From: Effrenium voratum
Lineage: Eukaryota; Sar; Dinophyceae; Suessiales; Symbiodiniaceae
Length of the DNA stretch: 64,000 nt
Assembly: GCA_963377175.1 (NCBI GenBank)
Contig: CAUJNA010003801.1
Span: 135,001 to 199,000, forward strand
Reading direction: 5' to 3'
The notes under the pieces were generated by a model. The model had not been told where the DNA came from, ran no database searches, and saw only the letters and a list, made by a program, of their open reading frames with translations. Position 1 is the stretch's first letter. Each line of letters begins with the position of its first letter. This document shows positions 24,945-50,868 of the stretch, piece after piece. The position numbers and the translations under genes are program-made.

Positions 24945-25600
<656 letters not shown>

Positions 25601-25860: not shown

Positions 25861-25942
25861 ACCCACCAACAAACCAACCAACAAACAGAATTAACAAGCA
25901 AGCCAGCCAGCAGGCAAACAAACAAACAAACAAAAATGGAAC

Positions 25943-26001
<59 letters not shown>

Positions 26002-26192
26002 TCAGGAAACCAAACAAGCAAGGCAAGCAAGCAAACAAACAAACCAAGCAAACAAACACACAAACAAACAAGCAAACAAACAATGAGCAAACAAACAACA
26101 AGCAAACAAACAAGCAAACAAACAACAAAAAAACAAGCAAACAAACAACAACAACAACAACAACAAGACAAGCAAACAAACAAACAAACAAA
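25861..26192. repeat. AACA/AAGC tetranucleotide field
   Basis: Runs of AACA, AACC and a pure AAGC block at about 25945-26000, again almost T-free on the plus strand. Lys-Gln and Leu-Cys frames are artefacts. Confidence 0.94.
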
Positions 26193-33175: not shown

Positions 33176-33180
33176 CTTAC
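33176..33180. repeat. target-site duplication, left copy (CTTAC)
   Basis: CTTAC directly outside the left LTR, matching 56432-56436 outside the right LTR. Five-base duplications are typical of Copia and other LTR integrases. Confidence 0.96.
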
Positions 33181-33575
33181 TGCGGTTTTGGGCGGAAAGG
33201 GCGTTGCCCAGGGAATCAAAAGGGTTCACGTAATCCACGAAGAACCCAAAGAACCCGGACTCACGACTCAGTGGACTGAAGCCGGTGACCAGGTTGAAGG
33301 ACGTGATGATTGAAGTAGTAGTGGTGGAAGTGAAGGTTAAACAGTAAGTTGCAATAGATCACCTTAACCAAGCCCAGGCAAGTCCTGCCGCAGCACCACC
33401 TACCTCCTAGCACCAGCCCACCCCAGCGCCGAGAGTCCTTTCTCGGCGACGCAGCGAGATGCCGTGCTATGGCGAGTGCCGTGCTACCAAAACTAACCTG
33501 ACGGGAGGTTAAACTTGAGCCAAACGGCCATTCGGCCGATTCGCTTATGATAGAACAACACGTGAACGAAACACA
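33181..33575 (-). repeat. 3' LTR of the Copia element
   Basis: 395 bp; on the minus strand begins TGTGTTTCG and ends CCGCA. Identical to the other LTR except one extra A (in GTTAAACAGTAAG versus GTTAAACGTAAG). Contains a perfect 8-bp-stem hairpin, CGCCGAGA/TCTCGGCG with a 6-base loop, at 33427-33448. Promoter and polyadenylation signals cannot be pinpointed by eye. Confidence 0.97.
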
Positions 33576-34211: not shown

Positions 34212-36287
34212 CTACCACCCAGAACCGGGTTCTTCCCGGTCCCTGAATGCGTCATCTCTCCGACGTCCACCGCGGTCACCTCGATCGCCTCCTCCATCCC
34301 GACGGCGATCCTTACCACCATCTCTACTGTGGTCGCCAGCCGGGGGTCGGCGAGGCGGAGGGGGATCTGATTGGTGACGTCGGTCATCCCTGCGCCGGTC
34401 TCTGTGGCGATCGCGACGGTCATCGGCGGGGCCATCACGTCCGCGGCGCTCATCTCGCCCCGGACCGCGCCTCTCGGAGGGCTCCTCACGGCGTGGAGGA
34501 GGTCGGCGATCATCGCGTCGGCCTCCGCGGGTATCCCTGCCACGATCATCCCTTTGTCGGGGCGGGCCAGGATCCTCGCGTCCACCTTTACCAGGTCGGT
34601 GTCTCCCTCGACCCTTCGCCTCACCCTTAGGGCCGCGACGATCCTCGCGAGCCCCAAGCGCGGTCCTTGATCGATCGTCATCTCGGTGGGGTCGCGACTC
34701 ATCGGCCGCACGAGTGGTCCGAGGCACGCCCGGAGGAAGCTCCCATTCTTCGTCGTCGTCATCGCGTGGGTCATAGCCGCCACGGCCGCCCAAGGAACCA
34801 GTGGCATCCCGTGGTGGGGACGCAGGAGTTCCGGGACCGCCAGACCGAAGACGAACCCGGGGAGTCGCGTCCTCGCCGGTAAAAGGATGGGTGTAGAACC
34901 CCTTGGTCCTGCCCCTTCTCTCCCCTTCTTCCGCACCGCTTCTTGCGGGGACCGGGGATGGACGGGCAGGCTGGGCCATGCTCTTGGAGCTGGGTTGCCC
35001 GCCAGGCGGGATGTGAACGCTCCCCTGCCCTTTCTCGGGCGCGGGGACCCGACCACGAGATGTCCTCCTGGCCTTGGGTTGGTCGGTGTCAGCCTCCAGC
35101 TCGGACTCGGTGTCAGGGACACGAGTATTGACGGCCATGTCCTCTTCCTCAAACGGATCCCCAGCCGTTGTGACGCCCGCAGCAATAGGAACGGGGGGAG
35201 GAGGAGGAGGAACTGGCACAGCTCCGCCAGAACCGACGCCTGTGTGGGACACCACGGGGGTCTCCGGTTCTACCGGGACAGGCGGCGCGGGAGGAGCCGG
35301 GGGCGGTGGCGGAGGGGGAGGGATCTCCTCCTCATCTTCGCCCATGGGCTCGTCAAGGTCATCAGGCTTCTCATCGTCTTCGTGCGAAGATCCATCCGAT
35401 CCCAGCTCATCCTCCGCTGATCCAGCAAAGTCGGGCTCTTCTTCGTCTTTCACGCCAGGGCCTGGTGTAAGGCGGATTCCGGGTCGATGGCGATCGCGGG
35501 GTCGGAAGCGGTATTTCCTGGGTGCAGGATCGGCCAGCTCCTGTTTGATGTCGTCCTGGGTTTGCGGACGGTCGGCCAAGCACGTGTCGTAGGCAACGGT
35601 GGACGTCCGGTAGATCAGCTCATCCATACTGCTGAGGTCGTTGAGCGTGTAGGCGTAGCCCTTCTTTACGCCTTCCCGTACCGCGTCCATAGCCTGCTTG
35701 AGACGCGCGGCGGGATCGAAGCCGGCCCTCCTCCGCATGGCTCGCATCACCCCACAGTGTTGTGCGAGCAGCTCCACCTGGGCCTTGAACGTCTCCCCGG
35801 ACACATCGTTCGGGACTATCGGAGAAAGATGCCCGGATCTCAGCCCAATGATATGAGCTTCGACCATGTAGTATGACGTGTAAAAGCCGCAGCGGTTGGC
35901 GTTGAAGTTTGCGGTGGTTAGGCGTCTGCCCCACTCAGCCGCATACCCTTCATATTCCTCGAAGAAGTCGGGGACGGTGTTCCCGTTGAAAGCAAGACCC
36001 CTTACCAAGATCGCCTTTGCGACCCACTCTTCCACATTGTGGTCAACAGTGTCACGGTATTTGCCGTCAAGAACCTCGTCTCGGAGCGAGTCGTGGAGTT
36101 TCTGGAAAATGCCGTCCACGTCCTCTTTGTCGAGGTACATAGGAGGTCGCATCCCAGACATCAGCAAGGACCGGGCGTCAACGGCGGGACTCTGTGAGTA
36201 GAGGGCCATTCCGATGGCGTTGGCGTCTGCGTTGTTGCACAGAACGGGGACGACGCCCCCGTATTTCCCCAACCAGCTGGGAATCAC
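34212..36287 (-). CDS. ORFX segment X7: folded N-half, disordered Pro/acidic/Arg-Asp tail
   Basis: 691 codons from an internal Met; the frame is open upstream to about 36320, overlapping the end of X6. Residues 1 to about 245 look globular (GKYGGVVPVLCNNADANAIG near the start; YTSYYMVEAHIIGLRSGHL near 120). From about 260 the chain is disordered: an acidic block (DEEEIP), proline runs of eight and six residues, then about 200 residues dominated by Arg, Asp, Gly and Pro with RDR and RGG-like repeats, as in RNA-binding tails. No family recognised. The opposite strand also carries a long open frame over part of X6, but the minus frame continues the chain of overlapping segments and is preferred. 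Likely the C-terminus of one long ORFX product. Confidence 0.6.
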   Translation of the reverse strand: MIPSWLGKYGGVVPVLCNNADANAIGMALYSQSPAVDARSLLMSGMRPPMYLDKEDVDGIFQKLHDSLRDEVLDGKYRDTVDHNVEEWVAKAILVRGLAFNGNTVPDFFEEYEGYAAEWGRRLTTANFNANRCGFYTSYYMVEAHIIGLRSGHLSPIVPNDVSGETFKAQVELLAQHCGVMRAMRRRAGFDPAARLKQAMDAVREGVKKGYAYTLNDLSSMDELIYRTSTVAYDTCLADRPQTQDDIKQELADPAPRKYRFRPRDRHRPGIRLTPGPGVKDEEEPDFAGSAEDELGSDGSSHEDDEKPDDLDEPMGEDEEEIPPPPPPPPAPPAPPVPVEPETPVVSHTGVGSGGAVPVPPPPPPVPIAAGVTTAGDPFEEEDMAVNTRVPDTESELEADTDQPKARRTSRGRVPAPEKGQGSVHIPPGGQPSSKSMAQPARPSPVPARSGAEEGERRGRTKGFYTHPFTGEDATPRVRLRSGGPGTPASPPRDATGSLGGRGGYDPRDDDDEEWELPPGVPRTTRAADESRPHRDDDRSRTALGAREDRRGPKGEAKGRGRHRPGKGGREDPGPPRQRDDRGRDTRGGRRDDRRPPPRREEPSERRGPGRDERRGRDGPADDRRDRHRDRRRDDRRHQSDPPPPRRPPAGDHSRDGGKDRRRDGGGDRGDRGGRRRDDAFRDREEPGSGW

Positions 36288-36291
36288 CCCG

Positions 36292-37956
36292 TCAGTGCTG
36301 GCTATCGTGCAAGGGCCGCCGTCCGTGTCTCCGGTGGGCAGGACACCCTCGAAGGTAGCAGGCAGTGCACAGGTGAGCGCCGATCAGATGAGTCGTCATG
36401 CACCTATGGCATGGAACAGACAGCACCTCCCGGACATGCTCCGCCTTGGTGACCTGGTGAGTCTTCTCCATCTCGTCCCGACACTTCCTCGGGTTCTCAC
36501 TCACGGAGCTGAGGAAGTTGGGCGGATAGCACCATGGCCTCAAGTAAATGATGGAGCAGTCCTCCTTGAAGTAGACGCATCTCCAGTACCCGATCGTGAT
36601 GTTCTCGCGCGATGCAAAGGTACCCTGACGAGTAATATGCATGCCCCCATTTTCCATGGAGAAGAAACGTGCATCGAGGGCCATGACCACATAACGGGGA
36701 TCGCTCCTCTGGCGTCGACCCGAGGTGTGCAGCTCCGTCACATTGCTGTCGGTGATGCGGTCGACAGTGTCGTTGGGGCATTCACCGTGATCACGGATGG
36801 GTTGGTACTCGTCCGGCCTGGAAGGGAGGAGCTCAATCATGGCTCGCCCACCCCGAATGATCGCTCCACGTTCTACGTAGAGCCGATACATCCGAAGTGG
36901 CACCACCTTGTAGAGTGTCTTGGGAACCGACTTAGAGGTGACAGGAAGACAAACAGGGCTCTCGTAGAGCAAGTATTGATATCGTTCACGAAATGCTCGG
37001 TAATCAGTGTCAGATCCGATCTCAAGCGACCTTACCGCCGCTATGCGGGCGGAACCAGGCAGCAAACGACGCTCCTTGTCGCGAATGACGGTGATGATGA
37101 TCTCGAACATTCCCACCCCGTCTTCGAGGAAAGAAGACAGGAGGTACAACGAGAAGGCATCGTCGGACTCGATGCTGGTCCCGAAGTAGTGGCTCAGGTA
37201 CTTCTTCAGTTGTATCACCGAAGTGACGTTCCCTTGCCCGCTGGCAGACGAGGCCTCCAATTCTGGGTCCTTGACCGCGCCTGCATTTCCAGGCTGCACG
37301 GCTGTTCCACGGAGCGCGTCGCGTATTTCCGCGCATGCTCTCCTGTAATAGTGCGAAGAGGCGCCCGCCCTACTCTCCACCTTCTGACGGATCTCGTCGG
37401 CGAAGTAATCCAGAAGCTCCGTGGGGGCGGGAACAATGGCCTGGATCATCAGGTCAGGGTCACTCCTGGTCGGGAGGATAGGTCCTGCTCTGGTTCTCAC
37501 TCCCATCTCCAGGAATCGGGCAATATCCCCGACTTTAGCGCACAGAGTAGCGACCGTGTTTCCGATCCTGGGGGCGATATCTTCGCCTCTCCTGGCGCCA
37601 AGGATGACCACATTCTTCTTGATGGATTCTTCCTTCAGCTTCTCGAGGTTTCGCCGGGTGGCCTCAGTGCCCTTCACCGCGCTGAGGCGAAGAACAGCAG
37701 GCTCTGGCTTGTCCGGTCGCACGAGCTGGCCGTCGGGAATCTGGTCAAAGATACGCAAGGCGGATTTCACTGCTGGAACGTTCCTATACTGACCCGGCAC
37801 GCTGTAAAAGGCGTAGGAGAGAGTGTCATGCGAAGATGTCTCCCAATACGTGTACTCCTCGGAATCACGCGGGTCGCCAACGACGCGACTCACGGCCCTC
37901 AGCTCGGCCAGAGCACGCTCCGCCTCGAACTGTGAGGTCATGGTCGTGGGCAGCAT
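36292..37956 (-). CDS. ORFX segment X6: unknown protein with terminal Cys/His cluster
   Basis: 554 codons from Met; without requiring Met the frame opens near 38138, overlapping X5b. The composition is that of a folded protein with few low-complexity stretches and strong G/C third bases. Near the C-terminus is a potential metal site, CHRC...HLIGAHLCTACYLRGC, 20 to 45 residues before the stop. A one-base shift between about 38120 and 38138, where CCCC occurs, joins it to X5b; another near 36320 joins it to X7. Function unknown. It could be structural (virion-like) or enzymatic; nothing in it matches a polymerase, protease or envelope motif that I know. Confidence 0.6.
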   Translation of the reverse strand: MLPTTMTSQFEAERALAELRAVSRVVGDPRDSEEYTYWETSSHDTLSYAFYSVPGQYRNVPAVKSALRIFDQIPDGQLVRPDKPEPAVLRLSAVKGTEATRRNLEKLKEESIKKNVVILGARRGEDIAPRIGNTVATLCAKVGDIARFLEMGVRTRAGPILPTRSDPDLMIQAIVPAPTELLDYFADEIRQKVESRAGASSHYYRRACAEIRDALRGTAVQPGNAGAVKDPELEASSASGQGNVTSVIQLKKYLSHYFGTSIESDDAFSLYLLSSFLEDGVGMFEIIITVIRDKERRLLPGSARIAAVRSLEIGSDTDYRAFRERYQYLLYESPVCLPVTSKSVPKTLYKVVPLRMYRLYVERGAIIRGGRAMIELLPSRPDEYQPIRDHGECPNDTVDRITDSNVTELHTSGRRQRSDPRYVVMALDARFFSMENGGMHITRQGTFASRENITIGYWRCVYFKEDCSIIYLRPWCYPPNFLSSVSENPRKCRDEMEKTHQVTKAEHVREVLSVPCHRCMTTHLIGAHLCTACYLRGCPAHRRHGRRPLHDSQH

Positions 37957-38077
37957 GGCCCTCTCCTCCTCCGTGCAGTCGACGTATATGAACTGGCCGG
38001 TATGCAGGTCCCTGGGCGCGGCGAATGGCCCTGCAGTGTCGTGAACACCCAGCAGAGTGCTTCTCGCCTCGGCCTGG

Positions 38078-39055
38078 CTAGGGAGTGCATCCGCAGGAGG
38101 ATGGGCGGGCTTGGCAAGCTCCTTGGGGTTCGTTCATGTCAACGTCATCATCGGGTTTGTGACCTTCTTTCTCCGCCTTTTTCCTGGACTCCTTGATCTC
38201 ACGTGCTGTAGGACGTCGATAAGCCGGCCAGGGGATGCCCATGATTTTTTTTTCACCACGGGTAAAGGCGGATTCATCTCTGCGAATGATAACTGCCCGA
38301 TCCTCTCGTGATCCAGACATGGCCAAAGGGCCGCACATGGATCGGAAGATCTGCGCGACTGATTGCGCCAGGCAGTCCGGATACTCCCCTCTGAGCGCGG
38401 TGGTTCGCCATGTATCAGGGATGTTGGGCTCCAGCTTGTTGCCACGGTCGTCAACCCGATCAAGTTCACCTACGATCTGGTGAAAGGGCAGCGAACCTAG
38501 CCGGGTCTTGCGGTGAGCGGCGTGGAGGCAGTCATAGAATGTCCTGATCTTCTGCAACCCAGCCACAGCACCGGCCACGTGCGAGTGGACGTGCCCCATC
38601 CTCCAGGCGGTCGCCAAAGCCATATCAAGGCCGGCACGGACCGCGGAGAGTTGAGAGTTAAGGTCATAGGCGTTCATGTACTCTGCCGTCCAAAAGGCGT
38701 CATCCAAGGGGATGACCTCGCCATTCCGGGAATCGACCATCCCAAGTCGGGTTCCGTCGTGCACCATTGCATCGCACCGAGTCCTGTTTGGGTACGAATT
38801 GGAATTCCCAAGCGGCTGCTTGGCTTTTCCGAAGATGCCGGTGTGGTGGTCGCCGGACTCGCCCTTTCGGGTTACGAACTTGGAGTCAATCTGATCACGA
38901 ATCTCCGGTGGGCTCGGTTCTATCCGTGGCCTCCTTTCCGAAGTGGACATACTGGTGTTGCCTGGGGCCATGCACAGTGCATTTGTCCGCATATGCGTGG
39001 GCCCAGTCAACCAGTGTGGCACGCTTGGCCATTTCACGTTGCCCATGGCGATCAC
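38078..39055 (-). CDS. ORFX segment X5b: unknown
   Basis: 325 codons from Met; the natural entry is probably near 38905 by a one-base shift from X5a, around the codons for PEIRDQIDS. Contains WTAEYMNAYDLNSQL and FRSMCGPLAMSG, then ends in a Lys/Glu-rich stretch (KESRKKAEKEG). The natural continuation is into X6 (NEPKELAKPAHPPADALPS) after loss of one C from CCCC. No homologue recognised. Confidence 0.5.
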   Translation of the reverse strand: MIAMGNVKWPSVPHWLTGPTHMRTNALCMAPGNTSMSTSERRPRIEPSPPEIRDQIDSKFVTRKGESGDHHTGIFGKAKQPLGNSNSYPNRTRCDAMVHDGTRLGMVDSRNGEVIPLDDAFWTAEYMNAYDLNSQLSAVRAGLDMALATAWRMGHVHSHVAGAVAGLQKIRTFYDCLHAAHRKTRLGSLPFHQIVGELDRVDDRGNKLEPNIPDTWRTTALRGEYPDCLAQSVAQIFRSMCGPLAMSGSREDRAVIIRRDESAFTRGEKKIMGIPWPAYRRPTAREIKESRKKAEKEGHKPDDDVDMNEPQGACQARPSSCGCTP

Positions 39056-39377
39056 TGGCGATGGCAGCGTTCAGCGTCCTCGATTGATCACCCTGTTCTT
39101 TAGTCACCTGGTCCGAGTTCCTCGCCTTGTTTGCGTAGCTGGCCACGATCGGCTCGAAATTTTTCTCTCGAGCGGCGATGTGATGAAGTACAAGCTTGTC
39201 GGGCCGGGTGAATGCTTCGTCAAGGGGGATCGATCCTCTCTTCGGCTCCTTGTCCTCGCCATAGTAGTTGGGATTCCGTTCTTCGGGTTCCTCGAGGCCA
39301 CCGTGTACCGGGTCCGTCGACTCTGTGGCGCTAGCCCGGACGACCCTATGTCGGATGATCTCCGCTGAGCTTTCCAC
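38895..39377 (-). CDS. ORFX segment X5a: unknown
   Basis: 160 codons linking X4 to X5b. It is entered from X4 by a shift in the opposite direction to the other junctions (near 39370). Charged and hydrophilic: PNYYGEDKEPKRGSIPLDEA near residue 36, and DWAHAYADKC near 123. No recognisable motif. Confidence 0.45.
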   Translation of the reverse strand: MESSAEIIRHRVVRASATESTDPVHGGLEEPEERNPNYYGEDKEPKRGSIPLDEAFTRPDKLVLHHIAAREKNFEPIVASYANKARNSDQVTKEQGDQSRTLNAAIASDRHGQREMAKRATLVDWAHAYADKCTVHGPRQHQYVHFGKEATDRTEPTGDS

Positions 39378-40576
39378 GCCTCAAGCGTCTGAAAGGTCTC
39401 CTGCGAGTCAGGGTCAAAATACTCACCGTCGGGGGTGATGACATATCCCTCAACGGAGACCCCCGGGTCCCCGGTGGAGGTGCGGGCATCGGGGTCTACC
39501 TCATCGAACTCTGAGAGATCCTCCTTTGTCGGAAGCCCCCCCGATCCGGTGCTCCCCCCTACTTCCATTGACGCAGCAGGATAGGAATCGACGTCTGGTA
39601 CATCGTCAGTCGTCTGATCAAGGGCCTCCATGAGGTCCTCAAAATTCTCCACACCACTGAGGTCGACCGGCCTGGCCACTGGCGCCGCGGGCGGCGCGCC
39701 TCCAGGGGCAGGGGTGGGGGCAGTGGCGGGGGCGGCCGGTTCTACCGGCGTGCCGCGCCAATATGCCTTCTCAGCGTCAACATCCATGTCGTCATCCTTC
39801 TCCTCGACGGTAGGGAGCGCGGGAACATCCTTCTTTTCACTGCCCGTTGGTTTCTTCAGCTCCTCAGCCTTCTTCTTGGCCGCCTCTGCAGCCTTGCGAG
39901 ACGCCTCAGACGTAGCAAGGCGCGGGAAATTGCTCTCGTCCTTCCCGGGCGGAGTCAGCACAGATTTGGGCAATGGGCCCCCCCAACGGGGGGCCTTTGG
40001 TGGGTCAGCTGGCTCGGGAACCGGCGAACTTCCTCCGGAAGTGTGGGTATTCGGTGCCCGAGCGGGAGGGGCACCCTTGGCAGCCGTAGAACCGGGATCC
40101 GGCGATCTAGCTGGCATGCCACCCTTTGCGGGCACGGTAGGGACAGGGGCCTTGGGGACACTTCTAATGTCAATGGCCCCCTTCGCCTTGGCCTTGCTGG
40201 GCGAGGCTTTCGGTGGCGAGACAGGGCGCGTCGGTGGCGGCTTCGTCTTCGGTGTGGGGCCTTTGGGCTCGGCCTGACGGGCTGGGGCCTTCGCTTCAGA
40301 GGGAGCCGCCACCTGTGCGGGGGGCGTCACCTCGGATGCCGCATCAGTCATCTCCACGTCATGCGACTGGCCAGAGCTATCTGTCCCGGCGATCTTCGCT
40401 GACGAGGCGGCAGAGTAAGTCAGTGAATCATCCCAGACCTTAGTCTGCAGAATCCTCTCCGCCTTCACCTTCGCGTCCTCGTCGGGCGGGTACATGGTCT
40501 TCTTGTACAGCAAGCCCAACGTTTTCGCAGCATTGGCCGTACTCATGACGCGGTGTAGCGTCCACGAGATGTCCAC
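39104..40576 (-). CDS. ORFX segment X4: Pro/Ala/Lys-rich linker region
   Basis: 490 codons. Before the given Met the frame is open from about 40655 (ATPANKYRAALALPALVSAA), continuing X3 after removal of one T from a T5 run. The first ~60 residues are ordered (STANAAKTLGLLYKK). Residues 80-330 are low complexity: Pro, Ala, Lys and Ser with PPTRPVSPPKASPSK-type sequence and an Ala/Lys helix (RKAAEAAKKKAEELKK). Residues 330-440 are acidic (FEDLMEALDQTTDDVPDVD). The last ~60 residues are probably out of frame. Confidence 0.5.
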   Translation of the reverse strand: MDISWTLHRVMSTANAAKTLGLLYKKTMYPPDEDAKVKAERILQTKVWDDSLTYSAASSAKIAGTDSSGQSHDVEMTDAASEVTPPAQVAAPSEAKAPARQAEPKGPTPKTKPPPTRPVSPPKASPSKAKAKGAIDIRSVPKAPVPTVPAKGGMPARSPDPGSTAAKGAPPARAPNTHTSGGSSPVPEPADPPKAPRWGGPLPKSVLTPPGKDESNFPRLATSEASRKAAEAAKKKAEELKKPTGSEKKDVPALPTVEEKDDDMDVDAEKAYWRGTPVEPAAPATAPTPAPGGAPPAAPVARPVDLSGVENFEDLMEALDQTTDDVPDVDSYPAASMEVGGSTGSGGLPTKEDLSEFDEVDPDARTSTGDPGVSVEGYVITPDGEYFDPDSQETFQTLEAWKAQRRSSDIGSSGLAPQSRRTRYTVASRNPKNGIPTTMARTRSRREDRSPLTKHSPGPTSLYFITSPLERKISSRSWPATQTRRGTRTR

Positions 40577-41153
40577 TGCCGCGCTGACGAGTGCCGGGAG
40601 CGCTAACGCAGCTCTGTACTTGTTCGCGGGGGTCGCCCCAAAAAGCGAAATCCGCAGGAACCACGATCAGGTTCCTCTTCATCGCTGCCCTGATGAAGGT
40701 CGTGATGACGCCGAGCATGTTTGTATTACGTGCGGGCTGAAGCCACGACGCAACCGAAATGAGGATCACCACATTCGATCCAGCCCTCCTCACGGACTCA
40801 AGCCTTTCCAGGGTGAGGTGGATGAGGGTCTGCGCGTTGCTCTTGATGACCGACACCTGCTTTTTCTCATCCCAATCGGCCAGGTCATGGAGGCGGGTCG
40901 CAAAGATGCAGGTGTCATACTCCATGGCCTCTCTTCCAACCGCTTTCTCGCGGTCATGAATGAGCCGTGTGGCCTCTTCGACCAGGGTGGCGATGGGGAT
41001 GTGGTAATCATGATCCCCATATGGGCAGTGGAACTGGACCTTCACTATCAGTGGACCGGAGAATGTCCAATTGCGCACTGAATTCGTCCGCCGTGATGTA
41101 TGAGCCCTTCTTGGTCTTCCCGCGCGATGCAAAGCAAAGATCGTAGAAGACAA
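40440..41153 (-). CDS. ORFX segment X3: unknown globular domain
   Basis: 237 codons; the natural part starts near 41090 (VKVQFHCPYGDHDYHIPIAT) and ends near 40660 (VVPADFAFWG). It reads as an alpha/beta domain: LIHLTLERLESVRRAGSNVV then ILISVASWL, and a helix-strand pair FIRAAMKRNLIVVPADFAF. The periodic strand-helix pattern and the motif ADFAF are the only handles; no family is recognised. The final ~70 codons past 40655 look out of frame. Confidence 0.5.
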   Translation of the reverse strand: MSSTIFALHRAGRPRRAHTSRRTNSVRNWTFSGPLIVKVQFHCPYGDHDYHIPIATLVEEATRLIHDREKAVGREAMEYDTCIFATRLHDLADWDEKKQVSVIKSNAQTLIHLTLERLESVRRAGSNVVILISVASWLQPARNTNMLGVITTFIRAAMKRNLIVVPADFAFWGDPREQVQSCVSAPGTRQRGSGHLVDATPRHEYGQCCENVGLAVQEDHVPARRGREGEGGEDSAD

Positions 41154-42432
41154 GCACCTGGGCGTTGGCCTTGATCGTTGGCTCCTCCAGATATGTGGGA
41201 GGCCCCCATCCCGCCGCCATTGCGGCGAGGATACCAGTGATTCCGGTTGTGCTCATAGGCAGGAGGCCCTTCAACACCGACGGTATGGTCGGAACATCAG
41301 AATCGATGCATGTGAGGGCGAACTCCGGGAATACGGTCAGGATGACGTTCCTGAACATTTGGTTTCCCCAACCCATCCACTCTTTTTCGAGGGCGTTCTG
41401 GTCATACGTAGTCAGGTGAGAGGTCTTGGGCCTGCTCAGGCTAGGAAGCACATCACTCTCGGGGTTCGTGATCCACTCCTGTTTGTACTTTCCGATCATC
41501 TTGTCGATGTCAAGGAATATGGTAGATGGCGCCAGATGCTCTTCCATGATGTAACCCGGATATTTCGGGTACTCATTTTCAAGTGCAAATGGGATCGATG
41601 ACCCAGCCTCCTGCACCTTCACAGCGTAGGTGTTGCTGACAAGGCGATGCCTGGCGAACTCCGGGCTGAATCCACCAGTCTTCGTAGGGGTGCTAGGAGC
41701 AGCCAATCGCTCCAGTTCGCGCTTGGTCGCGCCGATCTCCCCGATGGCATTAGGCTGAAAGAAGGCGCGCTTCCTCCAGGAGAGCGATGGAGAGCAGGGG
41801 TTAACCTCAATGTAAGGGTTGAACCGTTGCAACTCACTGTCTCCATTCGAGTAACACGTGGAGAACCCCTCACCACCCGTGATCAACTCCAGGTCATGGG
41901 AGAACTTGATGGCGAGAGCGAAGATAGGTGCCCGAGCCAACATGAGACGCCGCGTTTTGTCCCCGCGGGGGTTGTCGCCGTTGGCAGCGTCCACGGGGAG
42001 CATGAAGGATAGGTGGGCCCAGATTCCTTGGCCGTAGTGCGCCCACGGGGTGTACCCGAGCGCTTGGCTGTAGATCAGCGACGTCCAAATCCCGAGCTTG
42101 TCCTCGGACTCGGAACTCACCACTTCTTCATGGGCGATGGAGGCCCAGAGGGAGAATTGGCTGAGTCCGTGAGCCCAGAGCTTGTTCTCAATGCTCCCCT
42201 GCTGCCAGTGGTTCCAATTCGGGGATTCCGCATCAATGATGGACGAGAGAGAAGGTACGATCCAGTACCCCTCGCCGGCCGTGATGCCGTTGTCGTGGGC
42301 CACGTTGGTCACCCCGGGGGTGGCGAGCCTCTCAACCTTTTCCCACAGGAAGAATTGGTCAAGCACGGTAGCGACCTTCAGCTCAGAGGTCATGTGCTCC
42401 GCAAATGCACCAAACCCGCCGTAGGCCTCCAT
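41008..42432 (-). CDS. ORFX segment X2: unknown, Trp-rich
   Basis: 474 codons from the Met of MEAYGGFGAFAEHM at 42432, overlapping the end of X1 by 50 bases. Trp-rich stretches: NWNHWQQGSIENKLW at about residue 70, then SLWASIAHEE and YTPWAHYGQGIWAHLSFMLP. Later parts contain EWMGWGNQMFRNVILTVFPE and STTGITGILAAMAAGWG. Composition is that of a large folded protein, perhaps a shell or coat type, but that is only a suggestion. Joins X3 by a one-base shift near 41065-41085. Confidence 0.58.
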   Translation of the reverse strand: MEAYGGFGAFAEHMTSELKVATVLDQFFLWEKVERLATPGVTNVAHDNGITAGEGYWIVPSLSSIIDAESPNWNHWQQGSIENKLWAHGLSQFSLWASIAHEEVVSSESEDKLGIWTSLIYSQALGYTPWAHYGQGIWAHLSFMLPVDAANGDNPRGDKTRRLMLARAPIFALAIKFSHDLELITGGEGFSTCYSNGDSELQRFNPYIEVNPCSPSLSWRKRAFFQPNAIGEIGATKRELERLAAPSTPTKTGGFSPEFARHRLVSNTYAVKVQEAGSSIPFALENEYPKYPGYIMEEHLAPSTIFLDIDKMIGKYKQEWITNPESDVLPSLSRPKTSHLTTYDQNALEKEWMGWGNQMFRNVILTVFPEFALTCIDSDVPTIPSVLKGLLPMSTTGITGILAAMAAGWGPPTYLEEPTIKANAQVLVFYDLCFASRGKTKKGSYITADEFSAQLDILRSTDSEGPVPLPIWGS

Positions 42433-43294
42433 AGATATGGTCGATCGATCTGCTAGCGGCCCTGTCCTGACACATGTTGATGATGTCCTCCAAGGTTCTA
42501 TCCTTAATGAGGGAGATGCCGTCAACAACGATCTCTGGGGGTACAAACATAGCAAGGGGGCGCATCTGTAGCCACTTTCTCACTATGGAGGGCTCGTACT
42601 GAGTGAAGCTGCTGATGCCTCCCGTGTGTTGGGAACGACGCGGATCAGCCATGTCATAGCAGTCGTGCGTGAAGCCGACGTAGCTTCTGTACTGGTTCTG
42701 CCTGACCGCCGAGTACTCAGTCCTCCATCTTTTCTTCAATTCCCCGTCGGCGTTCGTGATGGACGAAGACCACCCTCCTCCGGATGGTCGACCGCAGGGG
42801 TATACTGCCGGGTCGACGTCATTCGCCTCATCAATCCCGAGCGGCGCTATGCGGGCATCAGGGATGTAATGGGTGGCAGAGCCACGGACAGGGATCGCAT
42901 CGCACAGAACTGCCGCAGCTGTCAGGGCATTGTGCTCGGTTGCGACAAAACCAGAATCCTTGAGCAGGGCGACGATGTTACCTCTTCGGTAATTTAGGAT
43001 CTTGGTCCTAACATCCTCGGGAAAGGAATCGTAACTGTCGCACTTGACGAGACCATTGATCATAGTCTCCACCTGCTCTCCGGTGATCACATCGCTCAAA
43101 CGGGCAGCCTTTAAAGCCGCACGACCGTTAAGCTTGGAAACCCAGCCGTTGAAGCTGTTTTGCAGGATGTTGGCCACGGCTTTGACGCGGCCGGTGACAG
43201 TGTAGGGAAACCGCAACGAGGATGCGCTGCGAGGTGTGGGGAGGCTTTTCTCAGCCCCAGCCCTTGCGATCGACCCGCTCTCCGCGGAAGCCAT
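42383..43294 (-). CDS. ORFX segment X1: unknown, first segment after pol
   Basis: Start chos­en at the Met of MASAESGSIARAGAEKSLPT (43294), because residues encoded upstream are Pro/Leu-rich and atypical. About 304 codons to the stop at 42383. Contains AAVLCDAIPVRGSATHYIPD and SYVGFTHDCYDMADPRRSQ. Near the end, DHIYGG overlaps the start of X2, and a one-base shift there gives DHIYGG-YGGFGAF. The AUG here could start a second product from a subgenomic or spliced RNA, as for extra genes in complex retroelements. Confidence 0.55.
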   Translation of the reverse strand: MASAESGSIARAGAEKSLPTPRSASSLRFPYTVTGRVKAVANILQNSFNGWVSKLNGRAALKAARLSDVITGEQVETMINGLVKCDSYDSFPEDVRTKILNYRRGNIVALLKDSGFVATEHNALTAAAVLCDAIPVRGSATHYIPDARIAPLGIDEANDVDPAVYPCGRPSGGGWSSSITNADGELKKRWRTEYSAVRQNQYRSYVGFTHDCYDMADPRRSQHTGGISSFTQYEPSIVRKWLQMRPLAMFVPPEIVVDGISLIKDRTLEDIINMCQDRAASRSIDHIYGGLRRVWCICGAHDL

Positions 43295-43527
43295 ATCACA
43301 GAACTCGCATTGATGCAGCGGAAGTAGGAAGTGGTTCAAGGCGACCGCCGGCGGCGGTGCAGGAAGGCGATGGAGATCACCAATGGCCGCACAGCAGCGG
43401 TGCGTGAAGGTGGTGAAGATCACCAGCAGCCGACCGGCGGCCAAGGCCGGGGTGGAAAGTCCGTCTAGGACACGTCACCCGGGCCAGGGAATGTCGCAGC
43501 AGCGGCCCAGAGCGCGAGGCGGGGCGG

Positions 43528-44058: not shown

Positions 44059-47000
44059 TCAGACTCTCGTTGATTGAAATCCTGCAATCTGAGATGTTGG
44101 CGTCGTTGATGAAGGCGTTGAACTTTGAGTCATGATCGGATTCAATGCGAACCCCCCTGATTGGTGGAAGAGCAGGAGCGGCAGGGGGAATATGCACGGG
44201 TTGGGTGGGGTGGGAGAGATATGATTGCAGAAACCCTGCTTGAACATCCCAAGGGTGTGGAGATTTTTGCTCCATACGATCTTGTCGACACACGCCTTGG
44301 TGAGGATGTCGGCCCCCTGATAGTCCGAAGGGCATGCTACGAAACGGAATATCTTGTCATTATATCGCTCATTGAGCCACGCGATATCAACCCGTTGGGT
44401 ACGTGACATGTACCGCATGTTCGGGTTGTTGCCTGTGACGATTATTCTGCAAGCAGCTTCATTGTCCTCAAGGACGCTGATGGGTTGTGGGATCGAAGCG
44501 TCATATTTGATTTTGCACTTACACACGATCGAGTCAGAGGAGCCGTGACCGATGGCAAAGTGCCAGAGAGCGGCGAGCATCATGGCCTCCTTAGAAATGC
44601 CGTGATCGAGGGCGACAATTTCGGCCTCGGGAGTAGACTTCGAAACAGATGTCTGTTTCTTGCTCACGGCGGTGATGGGCATGTAGGTGCGGGGGCCAAC
44701 GAGGCACACGAGGACCCCGGACGTGCTTTTTGCGTCGGTTCGATCACCGGCGAGATCAGCATCGCAGTAGGTGACGACTTCAATCATATCAGATCGATCG
44801 CCAACACATCCATAGAGGTGTAACTCAATGGTGGGGTTAATGTATGACACGAGCCGGTGAAGCTTCTTGTCGCACAATTGGTTCCACTTCGTGATTCTGC
44901 TGGCAAGCGCTTGCACAGGTCGGATTAAATCATATCGGCCCATTCGAGCACCATACAGGATCTTCATTAAGACTTGTGCTGCTGCGTCGCCAAGGACGCC
45001 AGGCCTGGCAGAGATAATCTCGATGTCTTCTTTCTGGTCGACGAGTTTGTCAAACTCCGGGTTTACCGGGTTCTCGTCAAATTCGGGCTTGCTCTCGTCG
45101 AGGAACGGGGTCTCGACAGTCTGGAGAGCCTTGGGAAATTTCGATTGGCATAGTTCGAGGTAACGTTCAACACATGCCCGCATGAAGCAAGATTCGTTGT
45201 ATTTGATGAGGTTGATCTTGACTTTGCCGCGACATGCGTCGGCAGCAGGTCTTCGGTCCGGCCCAAAACGCATCTCGGGTATAGGCTTTGAGGGAGGATG
45301 TCCAACCGTCCAAGCAGTTCTTGGATCGAAGGGCCCATCAACGGTGGCTGATCTGAATTCGTGTTCACAGCCGAGATATTCCATGAGAGGACGGGGCTCC
45401 TCCATGTTGATGACGGAACCTATGAGTCTCCATCCCTCGGCGAGGTTGGCCGATGGGCCACTTTGCTTGAAATCGTCAACATAGACGACGAGAAAGGGCC
45501 AATCGGGAATGGGCACGAAGCCAACCTTTTTAAGTTGGGTCTCGCAGTGCTGTTCCCAGAAACCTCCAGCGTCAGGATGTCCATAGAGCGCAAGAACAAG
45601 GGGGCATACTGGGTCCTGCATGGTCTCCCACTCCTTCGGCCATTGGTCACGGGGAAGGCGTATCCAGGTCTTGGTTCCGCCGAGCAACGCCTGCGTATAC
45701 GCGGATTCTCCGTCGCTAACCTCAAGCGAGTTTCCTGGCAGTAGTCCGTATGCGTCAGCAACCTTTCCCGCCGCCATGGTGGCAGGGCACGAAGTGATTT
45801 CGGAAAACAGTGCCCAGGCATTGGATTCGTCTCTAACATGACACCCCTCGAAGACAACACGGCCCTTGAACTTCCTGTTCGGGTCATCCTCGCCGAGTTC
45901 GTGATTCTTTTCGACGCATATGTCAAAGATTCGGCCGACATGAACTTTGGTCCCTTCTCGTTTTGCCTCAGCAGCGACGTCACGCCACTCACGCACCCTG
46001 GACTGGTCCCAACAGCCAAGATCCCTAAGCTTCTTCCACTCCTTTTCTAGGGCGGCAAAGGCCTTGGGATTGAGCTTTGCCTCCTTCCGAGGCACAGGGC
46101 GAGCAACGCAGGCGCTGAACGGAGGAAGCCCGAGAAATGGACTGTGACCGGATCCATCGGCCCCACGAGGCATGGCAAACCACTCGGTGTTTCCAGTGGA
46201 GGACCACAAATGTGAGGGGAAAGTAGCAGATGCAGCGGGGGCACCTTTGTCAGTGCTGCCGAATCCTTGCCCCCCTCTTTCGGTGGCACGCGGCTTTTGC
46301 ACGCATATGACGGGCTCAAGAATAGAGACACGCTCAAGAATGAGTTGCGCGATTTTGTCTCTGTTTTTGATGAGGAAGTCGCTGTGTGAATGGTTGAAGA
46401 TTACAACCTTGATCTCTCCGGTATAGTCGGGGTCAATAACGCCGGCCCCGATGTCAATCATGTGCTTGGCCGCAAGGCCAGAGCGGGGGGCTATTCTCCC
46501 GTAGACCCCCTCGGGAATGGTGATGGCGAAGCCGGTCCCGATGGTGGCTTTGTCGCCAGGAACTTTGTGGTCATCGGCCGAGCGAACATCCAGACCAACG
46601 CTTTCAGGAGTCCCGCGATTAGGGACAGTGACCCCTTCCCAAAGAGGGTGGATGTAGAGTGCATGGGGGTCCCTCTTCCATGCAGCACGGTTGTTGGGCT
46701 CGGCGACAGCGACAGGAATCGTAGACCTCTCAGTCCTCCCTTTGTACCAGGACTTGATGATTGTCTGGCACATCTGCTTCGGATAGAGGGCAGTGAGCGG
46801 AGTGAGGGATCCCTCAATCCTGGCGTGCGCAAACCCCTTTTCATGGTGACATGTTCGGCCCCCAAGCGCGGCGGCGAGGTCGGAAGAGTTCGTGGCGATT
46901 CTCCACTGCTTCCGGATGGGCGTCCCGTTTTTGTCCTTCATTCCGAAGTCGCATCCGTCAATATTGACAGTGAGAATCTCAGGGTCGTCAAGAAACTTTT

Positions 47001-50000
47001 TCATGAAGGGTTGAGACCACCCAAGGCAATGACGTGGCCATTCATAGGCAATTCGTCCGCCACCCTTCCGCACTTCACGAGAAACACGAATGAAGGCCGC
47101 GAACATGATTTGGGACTGTCTTCGAGCGTCGTTGAGCTCGGCAGCGAACTCGGGTCCGTACTGAGAAAGGTTAACGTATTGCCAGGTACTCCAAGGTCCA
47201 CAGGGAATAGAAGACCAAAGATCGCATTTAGGATTCTTCCTAACGATCTCGATCAGTCTCCTAACATCCTTACCCTTAAGGATATCAAAGGAGTCCTTGT
47301 GCACGCGAATGGCATCTCCACCGTATTCGAACATCGTGGCGGAAAGTGCGGAATCGGCTTCGCACGCAAACTCAATGAGGAGTGATTTAGTGGAGGTGGC
47401 CGGAGCGCCAGGGGGATCGTCGCCGGACTTGGAGCGAGACTTCTCAACCTCAAGCTCCCTCTCAGTGCTGACATAGATCCTTCGCGCAATGAGCGACATG
47501 GCTCTCCAATCATCGGAAGAGATGGAGTTGGGTTTTCCCGTCCCGGTGTAGGGACGTTCTTTGCGCTTGGAGGATTGAGGATAATCGATATCCTCTTTAC
47601 CTCCCGGTGACACGTCTTCGCAGAGCGGTTTCTTGGGAGAGGGACGCCTCCTCTTGGGCGCGCAGCCTTTGTCAAAGAGGATGGTAACCCCGGTCCAGAA
47701 CTTGTGTGTCCTAACCCGATGGCCGCTGGCATATACATCACGGGAATCGCGATAGACCTCGTCTCTGGAGTCGAGGAAGGTGCAATGAGTGATCCTCACG
47801 TCGTCGAGATCAGCTTGGATCGGCCCCCCTGAAGGCAGAGGACGGGTGTCGTCTCCAAAGAAGTCCTTTCTCGCCTTGACATGGTATCGATGCCAGGACC
47901 TTTCTTCTTCAAAGCGTACCCAGTAATCATCCCTTTTGTCAGGGGAAGAACCGTCCGAGATGTGACGATCAATGAGGTCAGTCTTAGGAACATTGTCGAA
48001 GTCGTCATTCTGTCGATGATTTTGACGATCACCCTCGTCGTCTTCAGGGTCAAAGCGTCCCTCGTCGAAGCTGAACGACTCGTCTTTTTGGGGCAGATTC
48101 TTCCCGCTGAAGTGATCAGGGCTTGACAGGCGATCATGCTTATATGATGCAATTTCACGGGTACGAGCCTCATATGCTTTTAGCAGAGGAAAGACGTACG
48201 GTTCTTCAGCATTGTGGTAGATCTGCTTCACTTGGTGGATACTGGGTCGAACAACTCCAGCCTGAAAGTGCTCGAGGTCGGCAACATAGTAGTCGCCCTT
48301 CCATTTCCCTCCGGGTTCGAACCGGTAACCAAGGAAAACACCAGGTTTGGCGACAGGAGCGAACTTGGGAGCCTTATATTGATCGTGCTCTTCACCAGGA
48401 ACAGCGGGAGCGATACTAGATTCTTCTTCAGCAAAGTCAGCAAGGGGATCATAGTCGCAGTCACGCAGAGCTTCCTCGATTTCTTCGGCTGACATGGGTT
48501 CATATTCATCATCAGAAAGGGGTGCGCCTTCCTTTGAGGTTTCGCCCCATTTCTCGAGAGCGTGGACGTCGACCTGAAAATAGGCTTCGCCAATCCAATC
48601 TTGCGATTGATCATCTCTATGATCACTCAGGTTCCTCCACGTGGTTGACTGAATGGAGTCATTTTCACCGTTGAGATATTTAATGATGGTGAGAGTTTCG
48701 TCAGCGAGGAAATCAACGTCGATTGGGCAGTTGGAGCCCCTTGGATCGAAGAGTTTCTTTCTGGGCGTCCGGTGTATACGGATAACGCACTCATTCTCAT
48801 CGTCTTTGCTCCAATAGTCATCGTCAGCAGACTTATTTTGATCTTCGGGAGCGTTTTTGACCCCCCCCTTTTCAACTCGACGCGGTTTGGGAGCGACGGG
48901 GAAGAAATCAACCAAGCAACCGAAGGGAAGAAGCTTGCCGTTGAAAGGAAGGGGGGCGTGTCTTTTGGACCACGCGCTTCCACCTCCCCGATTCTCGATG
49001 TTCCTAGCGACGGCAAAGTACTTTGTTGCGTAGGGCCACCATCGGGCTTCTAACCCGGCTTGACGTAAAAGCACACGTGCACCATGAAGGACTAATTTGA
49101 CTTTGTTTTCAATGATGCCGTTGGTCTTTGGCATCCCCGGAGTAGACCATTCGTGTATCCAGCGCAGTTCTTTGCAAGCACTGACAAGTTCTTTAGCTTG
49201 ATCAGTGTGCATCATCTTGATGTCGTTTTGAGGCCCTGCGAAGCGGTTAAAAGCGTCAACGGTGTTCGCATCAGAGCGGCTCATGACAGGCATGACATCA
49301 ATCCACGAAGTGGCGAGATCGTAGAAGACGATGGCATCGGCCTCGCCGTTGATGCCTCTGTCTCGTAGGCCTTGCAGAACCATTGTGTCGGCGGTGACTA
49401 GGTCGCCAAAATCCTCGGCTCCGTGACCAGTCGCGTCCTTCTTCCGGAACAGTCTAACATTCTCCATCTTGGCACGTTGGCAGTGAGAGCAAAAAGGGTT
49501 CTTGGGAAGATGGGTCATCATGTGGCGGAGGGTCAAGGCATCAGCTCTCCAGTCTTCGGCGCTACGCAGAGGGCCGTGGCCTTCAAGCTCGACGGTATCC
49601 TCATTTGGATCAGAGGCAGGAGGATCAGGGTCAGGTGAACCAGGAAGGCCTTCGGATGCCGCAGGCATGTCCTTTGTTGCCTCCGGGATGACATCCCCGG
49701 AAAGAGCAGAAGGAGCGGGAACAGCAGGGATGTCAGGGTACTGGTCAGTCACCGGAGAACTGAAGTTACAACGTGAGGCAGGCAAGTACGGGACGTTGTT
49801 CAGCACGTCGAGTACAATCTCCTTGCCACCAGGTCCTTGAAGGACGGGAAGCTCACCTGCGGGCCAGGTGAAGGTATAACCTTGCTCCATACAGCGTTTA
49901 CCGATTGAGATGAGCGATGGCGTGTTCTGCATGACGTGGGCATCGATCACCTCGTCAATGTCCTGCATATCAGCAGCGATGCTTCCGACGAGGGTCGATG

Positions 50001-50862
50001 CCGTACCGTTGGCGGTCTGCAGGGCGTGGGTACGTCCAGCTTTCTTCACCAGACTCTGCTCTCCGGCGCTAAGTTCGTTCAGTCCAACAAGATCGATGGG
50101 GCAGCCTGTATCAGCAAGCCAACGGATCGATCGTTCGTGTCCAGGAGCGGATGGAGTAGAGGACATGCGCGATGCTCTATACATCATGCGCCGTCGAATC
50201 GGTTTAGATTCGAGGTATTCGCCCTCCTGATCAATAGCGACCTGCTCCTGCATGGATAGCGCGCGGAGAATGGCCTTCTCACTTTGGCGCTCAATGGTGA
50301 TCTTTGAAGCATTCTTGAATTCCCCGGAGTGAGTATAGGATGGATTTCGAGACTTCTGAGAAACATGAGAAATCTGCTTCATGAGAATGTTATCAGCAAC
50401 GACGATATACTCAATCATGGCGGAGTCATTCATTTGAACTGTCCGGCTGCGATCGTCGTTGTAGACGTTCGGACGCATAGCAGCATTCCAGGCGGCACGC
50501 TTAACAGGATCAGTATATGACCAAAAAGTAGTTTTCACGTCGCCGGTAAAACCGATAGGGCAGAACATCCTATTCCGCGAAGTGTCAGAAGTGATGGGAA
50601 GGTCCTGGATAACCCGTCCATCGAGGATGGAAACGGTCCGTCTCCACACCACATGCTGTAAGTCGGGGCCTCCACCTGTGGGTCCCTGAAACATGCAAGC
50701 CCGGTGATCGGTTCTAGACCACTCCTGTGCATCAGTGGGAGGAGAGCGGCCAGGTGTCTTGTCAGAAAGGGCACCCATCAGGCCACCATGTCCGCACTTA
50801 GTCGCTGGGCACGCGATAGATATTCCCGGCGAGGCCTGTGGGTAACGGCCCGCCCCTCTCAG
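44059..50862 (-). CDS. pol: Copia-type Pol polyprotein with extra methyltransferase-like and dUTPase domains
   Basis: Made as Gag-Pol by a -1 shift; the Pol frame opens at the CTG at 50862 and its first Met is at 50778 (2239 codons from there, numbering used here). Protease: LADTGCPIDL, Asp at 223. Integrase: HMMTH with CSHC near 420-435, catalytic Asp464, Asp526 (HTDQ) and Glu557 (GIIEN), then a GVFLGYRF C-terminal element. Residues ~1130-1340: Rossmann-methyltransferase-like region. Residues ~1370-1515: dUTPase. RT: SDGESAYTQALL (Asp1689), YGHPDAGGFW, YVDDF (Asp1768/1769). RNase H: YCDADLAGD (Asp2006), STPEAEIVAL (Glu2051), EDNEAA (~2104), DILTKA. No internal stop or frameshift over 6.7 kb and all key catalytic residues are present, so the copy may be active. 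Confidence 0.95.
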   Translation of the reverse strand: MRGAGRYPQASPGISIACPATKCGHGGLMGALSDKTPGRSPPTDAQEWSRTDHRACMFQGPTGGGPDLQHVVWRRTVSILDGRVIQDLPITSDTSRNRMFCPIGFTGDVKTTFWSYTDPVKRAAWNAAMRPNVYNDDRSRTVQMNDSAMIEYIVVADNILMKQISHVSQKSRNPSYTHSGEFKNASKITIERQSEKAILRALSMQEQVAIDQEGEYLESKPIRRRMMYRASRMSSTPSAPGHERSIRWLADTGCPIDLVGLNELSAGEQSLVKKAGRTHALQTANGTASTLVGSIAADMQDIDEVIDAHVMQNTPSLISIGKRCMEQGYTFTWPAGELPVLQGPGGKEIVLDVLNNVPYLPASRCNFSSPVTDQYPDIPAVPAPSALSGDVIPEATKDMPAASEGLPGSPDPDPPASDPNEDTVELEGHGPLRSAEDWRADALTLRHMMTHLPKNPFCSHCQRAKMENVRLFRKKDATGHGAEDFGDLVTADTMVLQGLRDRGINGEADAIVFYDLATSWIDVMPVMSRSDANTVDAFNRFAGPQNDIKMMHTDQAKELVSACKELRWIHEWSTPGMPKTNGIIENKVKLVLHGARVLLRQAGLEARWWPYATKYFAVARNIENRGGGSAWSKRHAPLPFNGKLLPFGCLVDFFPVAPKPRRVEKGGVKNAPEDQNKSADDDYWSKDDENECVIRIHRTPRKKLFDPRGSNCPIDVDFLADETLTIIKYLNGENDSIQSTTWRNLSDHRDDQSQDWIGEAYFQVDVHALEKWGETSKEGAPLSDDEYEPMSAEEIEEALRDCDYDPLADFAEEESSIAPAVPGEEHDQYKAPKFAPVAKPGVFLGYRFEPGGKWKGDYYVADLEHFQAGVVRPSIHQVKQIYHNAEEPYVFPLLKAYEARTREIASYKHDRLSSPDHFSGKNLPQKDESFSFDEGRFDPEDDEGDRQNHRQNDDFDNVPKTDLIDRHISDGSSPDKRDDYWVRFEEERSWHRYHVKARKDFFGDDTRPLPSGGPIQADLDDVRITHCTFLDSRDEVYRDSRDVYASGHRVRTHKFWTGVTILFDKGCAPKRRRPSPKKPLCEDVSPGGKEDIDYPQSSKRKERPYTGTGKPNSISSDDWRAMSLIARRIYVSTERELEVEKSRSKSGDDPPGAPATSTKSLLIEFACEADSALSATMFEYGGDAIRVHKDSFDILKGKDVRRLIEIVRKNPKCDLWSSIPCGPWSTWQYVNLSQYGPEFAAELNDARRQSQIMFAAFIRVSREVRKGGGRIAYEWPRHCLGWSQPFMKKFLDDPEILTVNIDGCDFGMKDKNGTPIRKQWRIATNSSDLAAALGGRTCHHEKGFAHARIEGSLTPLTALYPKQMCQTIIKSWYKGRTERSTIPVAVAEPNNRAAWKRDPHALYIHPLWEGVTVPNRGTPESVGLDVRSADDHKVPGDKATIGTGFAITIPEGVYGRIAPRSGLAAKHMIDIGAGVIDPDYTGEIKVVIFNHSHSDFLIKNRDKIAQLILERVSILEPVICVQKPRATERGGQGFGSTDKGAPAASATFPSHLWSSTGNTEWFAMPRGADGSGHSPFLGLPPFSACVARPVPRKEAKLNPKAFAALEKEWKKLRDLGCWDQSRVREWRDVAAEAKREGTKVHVGRIFDICVEKNHELGEDDPNRKFKGRVVFEGCHVRDESNAWALFSEITSCPATMAAGKVADAYGLLPGNSLEVSDGESAYTQALLGGTKTWIRLPRDQWPKEWETMQDPVCPLVLALYGHPDAGGFWEQHCETQLKKVGFVPIPDWPFLVVYVDDFKQSGPSANLAEGWRLIGSVINMEEPRPLMEYLGCEHEFRSATVDGPFDPRTAWTVGHPPSKPIPEMRFGPDRRPAADACRGKVKINLIKYNESCFMRACVERYLELCQSKFPKALQTVETPFLDESKPEFDENPVNPEFDKLVDQKEDIEIISARPGVLGDAAAQVLMKILYGARMGRYDLIRPVQALASRITKWNQLCDKKLHRLVSYINPTIELHLYGCVGDRSDMIEVVTYCDADLAGDRTDAKSTSGVLVCLVGPRTYMPITAVSKKQTSVSKSTPEAEIVALDHGISKEAMMLAALWHFAIGHGSSDSIVCKCKIKYDASIPQPISVLEDNEAACRIIVTGNNPNMRYMSRTQRVDIAWLNERYNDKIFRFVACPSDYQGADILTKACVDKIVWSKNLHTLGMFKQGFCNHISPTPPNPCIFPLPLLLFHQSGGFALNPIMTQSSTPSSTTPTSQIAGFQSTRV
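46230..46690 (-). other. dUTPase domain within Pol
   Basis: All five signature motifs of trimeric dUTPases occur in order: I VGLDVRSADD (Asp1397), II RIAPRSGLA (Ser1433), III GAGVIDPDYTGEI (catalytic-water Asp1449 and the uracil-loop Tyr two residues after the next Asp), IV DKIAQLIL (~1477), V GGQGFGSTDKG (~1506). Motif V, contributed to the neighbouring subunit's site, is complete. The enzyme hydrolyses dUTP to dUMP and pyrophosphate and would limit uracil incorporation during reverse transcription. Its place, between integrase and RT, differs from that in lentiviruses (between RNase H and integrase) and betaretroviruses (before protease). Confidence 0.93.
46760..47390 (-). other. methyltransferase-like domain within Pol
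   Basis: About 205 residues (Pol ~1130-1337) with spaced motifs resembling a cytosine-C5 methyltransferase: LIEFACEADSALS (~1134, like motif I FAGxGGxS), SIPCGPWSTWQ (Cys1193, like the motif IV Pro-Cys), and RIAYEWPRHCLGW (Glu1246, like motif VI). The canonical PCQ and ENV forms are not present, and a target-recognition domain is not evident. Retrotransposon-borne cytosine methyltransferases have been reported from dinoflagellates, and I recall similar Pro-Cys-x-x-Trp-Ser-Thr-Trp-Gln sequences in dinoflagellate Pol proteins, but assignment here is inference. Confidence 0.5.
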
Positions 50863-50868
50863 AAACCC
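50828..50868 (-). promoter_or_regulatory. -1 ribosomal frameshift signal between gag and pol
   Basis: The heptamer GGGTTTC (50868-50862) is in the Gag frame as G_GGT_TTC, fitting the X_XXY_YYZ rule, immediately before the Gag stop TGA (50861-50859). After a 7-base spacer comes a GC-rich hairpin: GGCGGGCC (50854-50847), a 10-base loop, and GGCCTCGCC (50836-50828), eight pairs with one bulged U. A -1 shift reads CTG AGA GGG and enters the Pol frame with no stop. Confidence 0.9.

Follow-up and report, generated by a model that had tools for sequence, protein, structure and literature searches.

A large conserved third gene downstream of pol in a giant copia-type retrotransposon family of the dinoflagellate Effrenium voratum

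An important question raised by this locus is what lies between pol and the 3' long terminal repeat (LTR) of a giant retrotransposon found in a 64,000-nucleotide stretch of Effrenium voratum DNA (GenBank assembly GCA_963377175.1, contig CAUJNA010003801.1, positions 135,001 to 199,000; this whole stretch is called the window), and whether it is a gene at all. A preliminary description made from the letters alone had noticed eight open segments of coding-like composition in this place, suspected a joined product of roughly 3,000 residues and considered a captured coat or other gene cluster or, alternatively, a novel second polyprotein. Our analysis shows that this region, here termed ORFX, is one reading frame with its own Met, is under purifying selection and has been kept with gag and pol across two lineages with about 50% identity in ORFX. 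The copy in the window is a broken version of this gene.

One reading frame behind eight open segments

The eight segments are all found on the minus strand at 34212-43474, where they overlap or abut each other 3' of pol (44059-50871), just as described before. In coding direction they are X1 (42422-43294), the Trp-rich X2 (41035-42435), X3 (40632-41066), X4 with a Pro-rich and acidic linker (39353-40630), X5a (38913-39353), X5b (38123-38911), X6 (36352-38127) and the C-terminal X7 (34212-36383), which ends with a proper stop at 34212. The start Met at 43294, located 0.77 kb downstream of the pol stop in the window copy, is common to the database homologue P0018 and the divergent (~50% identical) P0010. 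Altogether, the pieces amount to 3,055 codons in a region that is real, but with 9.08 kb in the window copy is somewhat shorter than the 9.2 kb originally given.

That these segments are coding, beyond what chance would produce, is indicated by codon usage, by homologues aligning in order and by the single open reading frame (ORF) in other copies. A codon-usage score trained on pol selects the frame of each X piece in succession, with the minus frame scoring best in 55 of 63 scoring windows and an antisense frame in the other eight. Database homologues align to the X pieces in their order, and every junction is spanned by at least one of them: X6 as a query against 5.8 billion proteins gave seven matches, several of which span junctions of the window copy in one frame; a search with a long query gave a single match, P0008 (2,088 amino acids), which extends from the end of X1 into X6 without a change of frame, except that its last 73 residues are off frame; and a third search yielded 13 matches. 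P0006 and P0003 both continue from X6 to X7 in a single frame. A gene on the opposite strand, which several long antisense ORFs might have suggested, was ruled out by the preference for the minus frame and by the homologues aligning with the minus strand, the sole antisense alignment in the region being one short match of P0003. A further database protein, P0019, joins a gag coiled-coil stretch directly to ORFX and is an internal-deletion derivative of a related element.

The true frame became apparent from other copies in the same assembly (1.156 Gb). Among the 40 of 464 LTR candidates that were scored, seven pairs are spaced 23.4-23.5 kb from start to start, compared with 22.9 kb for the window pair; a 20.3-kb pair on contig C3383 and others with spacings of 39-41 kb were not counted as full-length copies. 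In three of these seven copies ORFX is uninterrupted, with 3,162 codons and 3,102 amino acids from the Met, i.e. close to the size predicted for the joined product, and as one continuous frame it is not a gene cluster. The other four copies carry at least one break, with one or two frame switches each, which is an undercount, as the procedure recovers only five of the window's seven breaks. Of five further 3' ends, for which 8.8-9.7 kb were fetched, one is open throughout the fetched part and the others show 1, 3, 3 and 6 switches. Across all 12 non-window copies with at least 8.8 kb fetched, the range is thus 0-6 switches per copy (again a lower bound), and internal stops, 14 in number, occur in one copy only, the one with six switches. 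A protein search found open frames of at least 3,107 codons at 17 of 39 scored places, which were taken best first from 19,760 first-look candidates and are therefore biased to good copies. Finally, ORFX sequence follows all 15 sampled non-window 3' LTRs, seven of which had been chosen by pair spacing and eight had not (three of the latter show the ORFX tail only). Copies lacking the region or riddled with stops, which had been named as the sign of non-functional passenger DNA, were thus not the rule: the region was present each time, and multiple stops were confined to that single copy among the 12.

The eight frames of the window copy result from seven deletions of 1-104 nt, as seen in comparison with junction-spanning homologues and, base by base, with two other copies, in which these deletions are absent. 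Programmed frameshifting or introns can be ruled out, since reading continues across the same DNA positions in other copies and each of the seven breaks is a deletion specific to the window. At the breaks, microhomology amounts to 0-2 nt (versus the two copies), which gives no support to a microhomology route. The database relatives have breaks of their own (six deletions and one insertion by our count from the junction list, from which the rows of P0009 and P0014 with crossing anchors at one junction and an in-frame gap of P0016 were set aside, none of these bearing on frame breaks), and other genomic copies carry both insertions and deletions. Could the breaks in the window be assembly or sequencing errors in a gene that is really whole? 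All seven are deletions and the pieces contain no internal stops, the two window LTRs differ by a one-base indel and no substitution, and isolated frame breaks also occur in many other copies, all of which would fit such errors. Yet five of the seven deletions are more than 10 nt long, one of them more than 100 nt, and consensus errors are not usually of such lengths. We consider this explanation improbable.

In six of the seven full-length copies the LTR pairs were compared and differ by 0-1 substitutions and 1-2 indels per pair, so these copies are young. In both other copies examined for it, pol is broken although ORFX is whole, and of these two, one has a whole gag (as one longer ORF) and one a broken gag. 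For this reason, lesions in ORFX were no longer taken as proof that it is dispensable. Such a scatter of breaks over the family would be expected if young copies owe their mobility to the proteins of others, or if the assembly contains indel errors.

Purifying selection and association with gag and pol

Between the window and one other copy (3,045 codons), the non-synonymous and synonymous divergences of ORFX are 0.045 (dN) and 0.322 (dS), i.e. a dN/dS of 0.138. By piece, this ratio ranges from 0.048 in X2, the most constrained part, to 0.203 in X7, with 0.175 in X1, 0.200 in X3, 0.185 in X4, 0.085 in X5a, 0.073 in X5b and 0.144 in X6. Among near-identical copies, values of 0.164 and 0.167 were obtained. 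On the same footing as the 0.138 for ORFX, gag shows 0.085-0.086 and pol 0.068-0.093, so ORFX is somewhat less constrained than its two neighbours.

A second lineage, termed lineage B, is represented by two loci with 86% and 99% identity to P0010. Both have gag (61-62% identical), pol (57-78%) and ORFX (47-67% for pieces of at least 50 residues) in the order seen in the window, with a broken ORFX in each case. Between the lineages silent sites are saturated, with a proportion of differing silent sites (pS) of 0.756 versus 0.356 for non-silent sites (pN; 879 codons), and within lineage B dN/dS is approximately 0.19. Since selection acts on ORFX and the order gag-pol-ORFX has been kept across lineages that diverged to saturation, ORFX is an old and constrained gene of this element family, showing the purifying selection and the presence across copies and lineages that characterize a conserved additional ORF. 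Of the initial suggestions, it is the novel second polyprotein that gains support from the uninterrupted copies, the constraint and the old association with gag and pol.

These data also bear on the possibility that ORFX is captured host or viral passenger DNA in decay. The seven breaks in the window copy and the broken state of both lineage-B loci would be in line with it, and third-position GC is higher in ORFX (0.63-0.72) than in pol (0.58) and gag (0.53), which might point to an origin of its own. Decaying passenger DNA would be hard to reconcile, however, with uninterrupted copies under purifying selection and with ORFX accompanying gag and pol in a lineage so far diverged. For the element family this explanation is refuted and hardly credible any more; it fits the state of the window copy alone.

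The element and its host

The copy in the window is a complete LTR retrotransposon of 23.25 kb on the minus strand (33181-56431), copia-type and with the gene order gag-pol-ORFX from 5' to 3'. Its paired LTRs (5' LTR at 56038-56431, 3' LTR at 33181-33575), both with TG..CA ends, are flanked by a 5-bp target-site duplication, GTAAG, at 33176-33180 next to the 3' end and 56432-56436 next to the 5' end. The near-identity of these LTRs has been described above, and the copy is a young insertion. With ~22.5 kb between the LTRs, its internal region exceeds the 20 kb that define a giant LTR retrotransposon.

The pol ORF (44059-50871) has the order integrase, dUTPase, reverse transcriptase (RT) and RNase H, i.e. 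with integrase preceding RT as in Ty1/copia elements. This order is based on RT-like and RNase-H-like segments and on motifs picked by eye (integrase-like D,D,E motifs at pol residues 493-584, YVDD at 1797). The dUTPase domain (46252-46632) matches Pfam PF00692 with an E-value of 3.8e-34 and PDB with 4.4e-35. The rve profile (7.5e-4) and the RVT_2 profile (0.14) both stay below cut-off, in the case of rve Pfam's own, and a search with the whole ORF gave no RVT_2 match; because of this weak profile support the element is a divergent copia type. Between integrase and dUTPase, a stretch of pol with a PCGPWS motif (46640-47430) has no Pfam match; we take it to resemble a degenerate C5-methyltransferase-type segment. 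In the window copy, gag is split into three frame-broken pieces, consisting of a gag-like ORF with CCCH zinc fingers (50859-54722, best finger at 51108-51170) and N-terminal pieces at 54643-56015. Directly 3' of the 5' LTR, the internal sequence (55990-56037, minus strand) begins with GTTATCAGCC; it looks more like the complement of a tRNA anticodon loop than of a tRNA 3' end, a feature of elements that use an internal part of the tRNA for priming.

The host is a dinoflagellate, because the dinoflagellate spliced leader (sequence taken from PMC6050394) has 251 exact 21-mer matches in the assembly (111 + 140), whereas the reversed control has none (0 + 0). On contig C722 of this assembly (G000), a dense array of exact 21-mers at 109307-122977, many of them ~136 nt apart, is probably a spliced-leader RNA gene cluster of the host. 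Within the element, LTR stretches at 33514-33535 and 56370-56391 (minus strand) resemble the spliced leader and could possibly be a relict of a trans-spliced transcript; their sense score was reached in 7 of 2,000 shuffles, or in 12 of 2,000 if both strands are considered, but higher scores occur at two other places in the window, and the 12-mer match by itself is within chance expectation.

Outside of the element, the window contains degenerate tandem units resembling TTTGGGACCATGGG just beyond the 5' LTR (57741-58276), an ACAACA/AACA-rich repeat tract of ~1.3 kb in the flank (24854-26192) and a pair of identical 267-nt direct repeats whose starts are separated by 751 nt (60085-61102).

Possible function and comparison with known systems

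The whole ORFX protein shows the features already seen in the fragments, i.e. a Trp-rich part (residues 301-450), Pro-rich linkers, a Cys cluster and an Arg-rich tail. At the end of X6 (36352-36411) there is a zinc-ribbon-like CxxC..CxxC motif, all four Cys of which are kept in the divergent P0005, and the Arg/Asp/Gly-rich tail at the end of X7 (34212-34886) reaches 30% Arg and 18% Asp in its last part. Searches of Pfam, PHROGs and PDB sequences gave no Pfam match for ORFX and, in agreement with the preliminary description, no envelope, polymerase or protease signature. Matches to bVLRF1, DUF5610, Zot, aspartokinase and HrdB were at chance level, and one to phrog_18247 (E 0.0014), a family whose function is not known, weakened on trimming. 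A low-confidence model of P0010 residues 706-900, which correspond to the end of X2 plus X3 (40632-41180), suggests an α/β domain with an SGNH-hydrolase-like fold. According to blocks placed by eye and model, its catalytic Ser and Asn are not conserved, with YDLC in place of GDS and R..H/A-D in place of GxND, and the module is probably not catalytic. Modelling gave nothing usable for X2 or for X6, the model of the latter having a mean predicted local distance difference test score (pLDDT) of 34.

ORFX is the third gene of a giant (~23.4 kb) Ty1/copia-type dinoflagellate family and encodes one multidomain protein of ~3,100 residues; in our estimate, the chances are about even that this protein serves to build and move a particle or ribonucleoprotein (RNP). 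It would be translated from its own messenger, most simply via trans-splicing of the host's spliced leader, and would act in trans, such that a copy broken in ORFX or pol could still be mobilized. Its most likely place of action would be particle building and movement, with globular N-terminal modules (one SGNH-like and probably non-catalytic), a zinc ribbon and a tail whose Arg richness would allow it to bind RNA, which together could package, scaffold or localize an unusually long genomic RNA of 23 kb. Taken further, this lineage of copia elements would be a virus-like system of giant size with three genes, where copies share in trans a polyprotein of 3,100 residues and unknown ancestry that builds or steers the 23-kb-RNA particle by means of an enzymatically dead SGNH module and of RNA binding through its Arg-rich tail, a proposal that we put forward tentatively. 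If true, such a polyprotein would be a class of structural gene not seen in other retroelements.

Rather than building particles, a large accessory protein might also counter silencing or alter chromatin, transcription or the nucleus in favour of the spread of the element. We regard such an anti-host role as rather unlikely: the winged-helix hint that speaks for it comes from the pLDDT-34 model and is within the noise of the method, domain searches recognized no silencing-suppressor, methyltransferase or ubiquitin domain in ORFX, and X2, under the strongest constraint, is without a usable model. Still further from what we found is a replacement for an envelope or coat that would give the element partial infectivity or a way out of the cell. 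ORFX does occupy the env position of retroviruses, and GDSL/SGNH ORF3s of LTR elements in rotifers have been suggested to aid membrane passage (PMC5408684). Against this, a hydropathy plot (no dedicated predictor) of the 3,102-residue protein shows a hydrophilic N-terminus and no 19-residue window above 1.6 (a single one, at 1.61, occurs in the window's own X4), i.e. neither the signal peptide nor the transmembrane anchor of an env-like ORF3. In the BFVD search for viral folds, listed matches had template-modelling scores (TM-scores) of at most 0.12, and the sole one with E below 0.001 had a root-mean-square deviation of 49, the model being poor outside one domain. In viral contigs, GTDB contigs and phage records, the parts searched had no relatives. 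The VIA list contains no capsid names and was not counted as evidence against capsids. A captured coat found no support but may still be encoded, the models being too poor outside that one domain; the envelope-like role appears quite improbable.

Returning to an ORFX protein that works in particle or RNP assembly, the closest parallel in function is the ORF1 of CR1/ZfL2 elements, which bears an SGNH domain and is believed to take part in RNP assembly and membrane-dependent localization; that domain is described as active, unlike the one of ORFX (PMC5408684). With respect to position, the additional ORFs termed aORF-3S also lie between pol and the 3' LTR of LTR retrotransposons, in sense orientation, in a frame of their own and in the sampled copies. 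These sense ORFs of plants are discussed as env-like (PMC7264820), whereas ORFX, with ~3,100 amino acids and no transmembrane segment, belongs to a copia-type element of a dinoflagellate. The bdelloid rotifer elements Vesta and Juno, with a GDSL (SGNH) or DEDDy ORF3, share a third ORF after pol, a possible SGNH fold and, in some lineages, a dUTPase, but in these the invariant catalytic residues, identified with HHpred, are intact (PMC5408684), whereas in ORFX the fold is only modelled, Ser and Asn are not conserved and the domain makes up ~6% of a giant polyprotein. Burro, the giant LTR element of planarians, likewise has an internal region of more than 20 kb, a very large multidomain polyprotein and a dUTPase between pol domains; it is gypsy-type, however, and has its extra domains in ORF1 or accessory ORFs (PMC6431247), in contrast to a separate gene after pol in a copia-ordered element. 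In dinoflagellates themselves, LINE and DIRS elements of Symbiodinium have acquired extra coding capacity in the form of DNA methyltransferases (DNMT), but these are other classes of retroelements; the abundant copia elements in the same account are without a DNMT domain (PMC5890265), and ORFX has no Pfam match.

In a literature search covering titles and abstract openings of the top matches and few subscription journals, no comparable gene in a copia or dinoflagellate element came up. A conserved protein family of this kind, with X2 as its most constrained part and no fold assigned to it, is there to be solved; it renders testable the way in which a retroelement packages and copies a 23-kb RNA, and is relevant to the question of why retroelements and retroposed genes are abundant in dinoflagellate genomes. 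Overall, additional ORFs after pol (PMC7264820, PMC5408684) and giant LTR elements such as Burro (PMC6431247) are already known; what appears to be new is an unusually large orphan third gene that combines ~3,100 residues without recognized homologues with clear purifying selection and maintenance across saturated divergence.

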